DNA of 52,907 nt from an uncultured Bacilli bacterium (lineage in GTDB: Bacteria > Bacillota_I > Bacilli_A > RF39 > UBA660), in assembly GCA_944371305.1 (NCBI GenBank), contig CALVXM010000006.1, forward strand, positions 1 through 52,907, given 5' to 3'. The notes under the pieces are model-generated. The model was given only the letters and a program-made list of their open reading frames with translations. It was not told the DNA's origin and searched no databases. Of the stretch, positions 51,203-52,907 are shown one piece after another; positions within the stretch are counted from its first letter, which is position 1; each line of letters opens with the position of its first letter. A program made the translations under genes and the position numbers.

Positions 51203-51415
51203 TTATACCAACGCTGTTTTTATTTCTACTACATTCTTGGCTTGCAAACCTTTGTCTGTTTGAACTAATTCAAATTCAACATATTGTCCTTCCACTAAAG
51301 TTTTATAACCTTGTGATAAAATAGACGAATAATGAACAAAGATATCTTCATTTTCTTTATATTCAATAAATCCAAATCCTTTTTCATTATTGAACCATTT
51401 TACTTTGCCTTTCAT
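51203..51415 (-). CDS. Cold-shock protein, copy 1
   Basis: 70 aa single [11 protein letters not shown] (RNP1) and DIFVHYSSI (RNP2) bind single-stranded RNA/DNA. Paralogue of the next upstream gene (~65-70% identical by eye). Confidence 0.95.
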
Positions 51416-51528
51416 AAATTTAAATCTCCCTTCTAGTAATTCGCTTACAATATTATTATAAAATCGCAGTAGTCTAAAGTAAAGAAATTTAAGAGTTCAA
51501 ATTTCGACAATTTTCGACAGATAAAAAA

Positions 51529-51744
51529 CTATAATGTTACTTTTTCTTTTAATAAAGTAACATTTTTGGCTTGAAATCCTTTATCAGTTTCGACAATTTC
51601 AAAACTAACAATATCACCTTCATTTAAAGTTTTATGCCCTTTTAATATTATCGAAGAATAATGGACAAAAATATCTATATCTTCCTTGTACTCTATAAAA
51701 CCAAACCCCTTTGCATCGTTAAACCACTTAACTCTTCCTTGCAT
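51529..51744 (-). CDS. Cold-shock protein, copy 2
   Basis: 71 aa CSD with KGFGFIEY and [18 protein letters not shown] precedes the ATG. About 150 bases of AT-rich leader precede it, which in csp genes often folds to control translation. No full gene is seen in 51745-51963. Confidence 0.95.
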
Positions 51745-51963
51745 ATAAGCTCCCTTCTATAAATAACGACATTTTTCATGATATCATTTTTACAATATTT
51801 TTCATGTTTTTTTGTTTGGAACTTATATTTTGTCGTCTCAATTTTCAACCATACGTAATCAATTATTTTTTTAATTCTATACAATCAGCTAAACAATTGT
51901 TTCGTACAAATTTATATATTACTTATATAAATGCGTGATATCCTTAAATACGGGGTAGACAAT

Positions 51964-52572
51964 ATGAAAACGAAAATAATAAATGGTTTGATGACATTAA
52001 TAGAAAAAGAACAAAATTTTAATGAAGAAAAATTGGAAATTATTAAATACGGACTAGAGGGAGTATATCTAACCATATCGAAATTAATTATTATTTGTAT
52101 ACTAGCTTATATTTTAAATTTGTTTTATGAAATAATTGTATTTTTAATTTTATATAGTATTATTCGAATGACTTCATTTGGATTACATGCAAAAAAAAGC
52201 TGGGTATGTTTGTTATCTTCAACTATCATATTTGTATTTGTTCCATTTATAAGTTTACATATCATGATTCCTATTTACCTAAAAGTTATAATTGGAATAA
52301 TTTTAATTGGATTAATCTATAAAAATGCACCAGCAGATACTCACAAAAGACCAATTGTTAATTATAAAAGAAGAATGATATATAAATACTGTTCAACATT
52401 TATAGCAATTATATATGTTTATTGTGCGGTTTTAATAGATAATAATTTCTTTAGCAATAGTTTTATATTCGCACTTTTAGTTCAAGTTGTTATTATTTCA
52501 CCTTTAGTCTATAAAATTTTTAAGTCACCTTATAACAACTACCTAGCATATTTAGCCAATAATAATATTTAA
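51964..52572 (+). CDS. agrB: AgrB, autoinducer-peptide processing membrane protease
   Basis: 202 aa, five to six helices. FGLHAKKSWVC holds the catalytic His75 and Cys82, spaced by seven as in staphylococcal AgrB (77/84). RPIVNYKRR follows the conserved basic loop. It cuts AgrD and forms the thiolactone. The ATG at 51964 gives the usual length; the frame to 51931 lacks a ribosome site. Confidence 0.9.
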   Translation: MKTKIINGLMTLIEKEQNFNEEKLEIIKYGLEGVYLTISKLIIICILAYILNLFYEIIVFLILYSIIRMTSFGLHAKKSWVCLLSSTIIFVFVPFISLHIMIPIYLKVIIGIILIGLIYKNAPADTHKRPIVNYKRRMIYKYCSTFIAIIYVYCAVLIDNNFFSNSFIFALLVQVVIISPLVYKIFKSPYNNYLAYLANNNI

Positions 52573-52624
52573 ATATATATCACCTATATATTTGAATATA
52601 AAGATTTAGAAGGAGGGAAGTATC

Positions 52625-52744
52625 ATGGGATTTATTACATCACTTTTAGCAGCTATCGGTTCATTTACCGCAAACTTTGGCAGTAACGCTTGTTTCTTTT
52701 GTTTCTTTGATGAACCAGAATGTCCAAAAAGTTTAGTAAAATAA
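52625..52744 (+). CDS. agrD: AgrD, cyclic autoinducer peptide precursor
   Basis: 39 aa, too short for usual gene calls. GGAGGG precedes the ATG. Amphipathic leader MGFITSLLAAIGSFTANFG, core NACFFCFF, then the acid tail DEPECPKSL which matches the conserved DEPE.P of staphylococcal AgrD. Cleavage before Asp gives a ring from Cys23 to Phe28, with an extra Cys inside. Confidence 0.88.
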   Translation: MGFITSLLAAIGSFTANFGSNACFFCFFDEPECPKSLVK

Positions 52745-52772
52745 AAAAATGTAGCCATCAGAAGTGATTTGA

Positions 52773-52810
52773 AAAAAATCTACACGAAATAAAAAGCGTG
52801 TAGATTTTTT
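52773..52810. terminator. 14-bp hairpin between agrD and transposase
   Basis: AAAAAATCTACACG and CGTGTAGATTTTTT pair perfectly around 10 bases and end in T6. It ends the agrBD transcript and may also shield the transposase from read-through. Confidence 0.82.
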
Positions 52811-52842
52811 ATGTGTTAAAATTAGTGTGAGGAGGATAAGTA

Positions 52843-52907
52843 ATGGCAAGAGAATATAGGAATTTTACTAGAGAAGAAAAAATTAAAGCTGTAAAAATGG
52901 TTTTAGT
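52843..52907 (+). CDS. Probable transposase OrfA (IS3-like), partial
   Basis: Only 21 residues, MAREYRNFTREEKIKAVKMVL, before the window ends. The start resembles the HTH N-terminus of IS3-type transposases (KYR.y..EeK.kaVk). AGGAGG lies eight bases before the ATG. Confidence 0.5.
   Translation, partial: MAREYRNFTREEKIKAVKMVL

Follow-up and report, generated by a model that had tools for sequence, protein, structure and literature searches.

A two-cysteine AgrD peptide and its probable place in a complete agr system of an uncultured Bacilli genus

The window, that is, the whole stretch of 52,907 nucleotides that was analysed, is the entire contig C6 of a 1.14-Mb genome (47 contigs, 92% complete). 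At its right end lies an agrBD pair whose peptide core is rich in phenylalanine and holds two cysteines, with no receptor genes beside it. We consider it probable (roughly 0.75) that agrBD makes the signal of a complete agr system conserved in the genus, in which AgrA would drive a circuit comprising agrBD itself and the divergent cold-shock gene csp.

The agrBD pair and the predicted peptide ring

The agrB gene (51964..52572, forward strand) encodes a membrane peptidase that, on the evidence of Pfam family PF04647 and of the alignment, is expected to cut and cyclize AgrD. Its open reading frame spans 51931-52572, and the ATG at 51964 is the probable start because similarity among relatives begins there and a G-rich ribosome-binding site lies upstream. 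AgrB matched PF04647 with E 6.8e-33 (114 bits, cut-off 23). Residues R79, H86 and C93 (213-aa numbering from 51931) were invariant across 23 aligned relatives, and their spacing equals that of the Staphylococcus aureus counterparts R70, H77 and C84 (PMC10196373). A sequence search for a solved structure matching AgrB found none. Starting 52 bp downstream of agrB, agrD (52625..52744, forward strand) encodes a 39-aa signal precursor, MGFITSLLAAIGSFTANFGSNACFFCFFDEPECPKSLVK, with the layout expected of the family: a leader, a Cys core, an acidic DE-P tail and a gene adjoining agrB. AgrD scored 32 bits against TIGR04223 (cut-off 19) and 22.7 bits against PF05931, exactly at the cut-off. Both genes were intact and both reached curated family cut-offs, which bears out the sequence-only reading of 51964-52744 as an agrBD pair; the core NACFFCFF before DEPECP was likewise as that reading had given it. 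No further place in the genome exceeded the AgrB or AgrD model cut-offs. Elsewhere in the family, more than one agrD or agrBD was seen at loci L133, L143 and L160; one genome (G069) carries two tandem agrD genes on one contig, another (G092) has two AgrD matches and a third (G015) has a second agrB with agrD.

In S. aureus, AgrB cuts AgrD before Asp33-Glu34, both residues being essential for cleavage, and the ring joins Cys28 to Met32 (PMC10196373). By its conserved DEP motif, the AgrD described here would be cut between Phe28 and Asp29, which gives a predicted six-residue ring, CFFCFF, from Cys23 to Phe28. The earlier reading had proposed this ring but had taken its size to be unusual, and had recommended a search for AgrD relatives. 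Among the 77 distinct sequences collected, nearly all from the same taxonomic family, the spacing from Cys to motif was six residues in 72, seven in 3, five in 1 and seven or ten in 1; six extra AgrDs with a DEE tail also had a spacing of six. The comparison thus supports the predicted ring and indicates that its size is a trait of the lineage, not a peculiarity of this peptide. The ring Cys lies six residues before the predicted cut site, as in the Clostridium acetobutylicum type, and not five residues before it, as in the staphylococcal type. In other families of the class, the readable AgrDs, judged by eye, mostly had a Cys or Ser at a spacing of five from the corresponding motif. Within the family itself, an exception to the six-residue norm was observed in genus g41 (L095 and L165), with five-residue spacing and CMFAF and CTFIF before DEPECP.

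Cys26 does lie three residues before the cut, as previously described, and a core that itself holds two cysteines invites other ideas of the product: Cys26 could close a ring of three residues, or the peptide could be bicyclic or hold a disulfide, perhaps with the tail Cys taking part. Two-Cys cores are rare, but this one is not alone, since CACFVW occurs in L035 and CVSCAMFWVI in L110. We nevertheless regard such a product as quite improbable. Cys23 was invariant across the genus, whereas position 26 is a hypervariable ring site that carried Cys in no other collected AgrD. The tail Cys was conserved in the genus and belongs to the segment that AgrB should discard, as it does in S. aureus; since relatives with only one core Cys keep the tail Cys too, it is not tied to a second core Cys. 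A three-residue ring would, moreover, be strongly strained. The suggestion that the extra cysteines permit alternate rings or a disulfide thus found no support. Cys26 sits in the variable stretch of the predicted six-residue ring and is therefore most simply read as a specificity residue.

These comparisons describe a family whose predicted AIP rings have six residues, next to class neighbours that have five and share the type of cut site. The question of how AgrB determines ring size can now be put to more than 70 natural sequences, and an odd-looking peptide has led to a testable rule.

AgrC, AgrA and the contig break

The statement that AgrC and AgrA are not in view held for the whole window. 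Both genes were nevertheless found, adjacent to each other, at the end of contig C19 of the same genome. AgrC is the only GHKL kinase of the genome above the HATPase_c_5 cut-off; it was over the PF14501 cut-off and matched the S. aureus AgrC kinase structures 4bxi (E 4e-18) and 6e52 (E 2e-17). AgrA is the sole LytTR protein detected in the genome (LytTR domain 47 bits, over the cut-off). Its receiver domain fell under the Pfam cut-off (E 5.8e-6), and its best match among solved structures was ComE 4cbv (E 1e-10).

The gene agrB was found in all 17 other genomes of the genus, and agrC was directly convergent with agrD in 15 of the 17, the remaining two contigs stopping near agrD; the sequences share ancestry, so that these and other genus counts are not independent. 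The gene order common to the relatives is ClpAAA-LysM-csp-csp / agrB agrD > < agrC agrA feoB. The right end of C6 carries ClpAAA, LysM, csp, csp, agrB and agrD, and C19 read in reverse starts with agrC, agrA and feoB; because these ends fit the relatives' order, the two contigs supply its two halves. In most genus members a hairpin, AAAAATGTAG-loop-CTACATTTTT, stands right after agrD. In this genome, where the assembly has agrBD and agrCA, linked in the relatives, on two contigs, the contigs end in matching hairpin arms: C6 terminates with agrD, AAAAAAATGTAGCCATC and a repeat, and C19 with agrC, AAAAAAAATGTAGA and the repeat. On C6, the left arm of this shared agrD/agrC terminator hairpin occupies 52743..52754 (forward strand), with its right arm at the C19 end, and the left end of the IS-like repeat occupies 52760..52907 (forward strand). 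Joining the C6 and C19 flanks re-forms the hairpin conserved in the genus. Within the repeat, an open reading frame starting at 52843 was read as a probable transposase, and its 21-residue fragment had no Pfam match. The same repeat was present at two further contig ends (C36 and C35). Most simply, agrC and agrA would be absent from the window because an IS-like repeat in the loop of the shared terminator hairpin broke the assembly, and C6 and C19 are presumably joined in the chromosome.

The IS-like repeat (52760-52907; L052, 1-148; L053, 1-102; end of L161) seems to insert in terminator hairpins. At both agrD/agrC and rplS/lepB, each of its flanks carries one hairpin arm, and in another genome (G006) it follows AAAAAACCC just past a gene end. 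The repeat may target terminators; a literature search on insertion sequences of this kind yielded nothing useful. Two contigs, in genomes G001 and G010 (loci L016 and L028), likewise stop close to agrD, and what follows the gene there differs from the usual sequence; additional insertions into this intergenic site are a possible cause.

Signal and receptor also appeared to be matched in their variation. Across 15 genus members, mean AgrD entropy was 0.6 bits in the leader, zero at Cys23, 1.8 at the five other ring positions and 0.17 in the tail. Mean AgrC identity was 0.31 in the membrane sensor part and 0.69 in the kinase part. Ring similarity was correlated with that of the AgrC sensor (Mantel r 0.46, p 0.0002), also when AgrA was controlled for (r 0.45, p 0.0004), and showed no significant Mantel correlation with the kinase, AgrA or AgrB. 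This is the mark expected of a peptide and a receptor that change together.

Orphan agrBD signal producers occur in some clostridia, and here the two gene pairs do stand on different contigs. That agrBD is such an orphan, with the AgrC and AgrA of C19 forming an unrelated two-component system, is most improbable all the same: the genus order places agrC-agrA-feoB directly after agrD, the terminus of C19 carries agrC together with the other arm of the hairpin and the repeat end also seen on C6, and ring and sensor sequences vary together. When a metagenome assembly seems to hold an orphan agrBD, the cause can thus be a break at an insertion sequence. That the genome encodes a complete agr system with a six-residue ring is, on these sequence comparisons, highly likely.

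Predicted AgrA boxes between csp and agrB

Divergent from agrB lies csp (51529..51744, reverse strand), which encodes a cold-shock-domain protein (PF00313, 85.6 bits) and is a predicted AgrA target. A second csp copy (51203..51415, reverse strand) is conserved in the genus. The csp gene was kept beside agrB in the genus and in most of the family. Two csp genes stand in tandem in the genus (51203-51744 here) vs. one beside agrB in the other family members examined, which suggests a duplication at the quorum-sensing locus.

Between csp and agrB we observed TGYTTRAA-type repeats that form two mirrored tandem box pairs, each of 9-bp repeats with a 21-bp period, equidistant from the csp and agrB −10 elements. 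The csp-side pair (51813..51842, forward strand; half-sites 51813-51821 and 51834-51842), recognized by its period, by the scan and by the composite search described below, is a predicted AgrA operator. Its distance to the csp extended −10 element, TGATATCAT (51778..51786, reverse strand), was 26-27 bp in 16 of the 17 genus loci with a csp-side anchor. The agrB-side pair (51880..51909, reverse strand; half-sites 51901-51909 and 51880-51888) is degenerate here and is also a predicted AgrA operator. The putative agrB promoter has an extended −10 element, TGATATCCT (51936..51944, forward strand), 19 bp before the ATG and conserved in position in 17 of 18 relatives.

With a leave-one-out matrix built from the first repeat alone, the second repeat peaked at exactly +21 (15 of 17 above zero, z about 5). 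A locus of another genus, outside the training set, scored 22.7 bits at the same place vs. 10.2 for its next-best site. The distance from the csp-side box to the agrB extended −10 was 92-93 bp in 17 of 18 loci. When the opposite strand was scanned with the csp-side matrix relative to the agrB −10, the best gap was 25 and the second was 47 (46 close behind), which is the csp-side geometry in mirror image. A composite of box pair and −10 gave 13 matches in 18 whole genomes vs. 1 for the reversed pattern, and eight of the 13 fell within the csp/agrB intergenic region, on the csp or the agrB side. The five elsewhere were unrelated singletons without a common gene and were treated as chance; thus, no wider regulon was supported. 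In some species the matrix also matched between feoB and agrA; these matches coincided with a terminator-like hairpin of feoB and were not counted as AgrA sites. A genome box search with an 11-bp spacer, one base short, returned noise (37/38 matches vs. 33/32 in the control).

Known LytTR operators consist of 9-bp repeats with 12-bp spacers upstream of promoters (PMC2714321, PMC6193735). The predicted sites follow this format, with two 9-bp direct repeats and a 12-bp spacer upstream of a promoter; the half-sites agree with it in length, spacing and placement only, and their sequence fits no published AgrA consensus that was compared. We infer AgrA to be the box binder and an activator, and that it acts on both the agrBD and the csp promoters is somewhat more probable than otherwise.

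The boxes could instead control only csp or only agrB, or serve another regulator, with csp a neighbour and not an output. The strongest box pair adjoins the csp promoter whereas the agrB-side pair is degenerate, and family members with a weak box still have csp beside agrB. These points lend the idea some weight, but we hold it to be unlikely, given the mirrored agrB-side pair at an equal distance to its −10, the status of AgrA as the genome's sole LytTR protein and a repeat length and spacing of the LytTR format.

Proposed circuit and comparison with known agr systems

In the proposed circuit, AgrB would cleave AgrD at the Phe28/Asp29 bond and join the carboxyl group of Phe28 to the thiol of Cys23, closing the Phe-rich ring as a thiolactone. 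A second protease would set the length of the N-terminal tail on the ring. Two CAAX-type membrane proteases (PF02517) are present in the genome and could include an MroQ counterpart that removes the AgrD leader; this family is common, and nothing links either protein to AgrD. AgrC would sense the peptide and then phosphorylate AgrA, which would bind the mirrored tandem boxes and raise transcription of agrBD (autoinduction) and of csp (output). The route from AIP through AgrC and AgrA to agrBD and csp is the likeliest because AgrA is the only LytTR protein detected.

We suggest tentatively, at a little under even odds, that agr systems of the genus use six-residue-ring signals and have as their direct conserved output csp, with its divergent AgrA promoter, as a protein counterpart of RNAIII. 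Conservation of the divergent csp promoter points to an RNA chaperone under direct quorum-sensing control; if so, quorum control in this small-genome genus would act largely after transcription. A search of the open-access literature found no link between quorum sensing and csp in the ten papers that it listed, which is weak evidence of novelty.

Several features of this locus recur in known systems. Six-membered AIP rings have already been predicted in C. acetobutylicum and its relatives, where agrBD and agrCA likewise form separate operons (PMC10301443), and both traits are shared by the system described here. In C. acetobutylicum, however, the LanM-like CA_C0082 is neighbour and effector, whereas here there are a divergent csp and mirrored predicted AgrA boxes; the tail-to-tail arrangement of agrBD with agrAC, the order of the relatives, is a further difference. 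Like Listeria monocytogenes, this genome would produce a short hydrophobic AIP, and a tailless thiolactone might rearrange by an S-to-N acyl shift as it could there, but the Listeria peptide has a pentameric ring and one core Cys (PMC11297923). With S. aureus the system shares the Arg, His and Cys residues of AgrB and the AgrD layout with a DE cut site (PMC10196373), a GHKL kinase as AgrC, a LytTR regulator as AgrA and a divergent output promoter beside the autoinduced operon, as in the staphylococcal P2/P3 pair of divergent agr and RNAIII (PMC12312760). Whereas S. aureus has a five-residue ring, a single agrBDCA operon and RNAIII as output, in this genus the ring is predicted to have six residues, the genes form two convergent operons, and the output is predicted to be a cold-shock protein.
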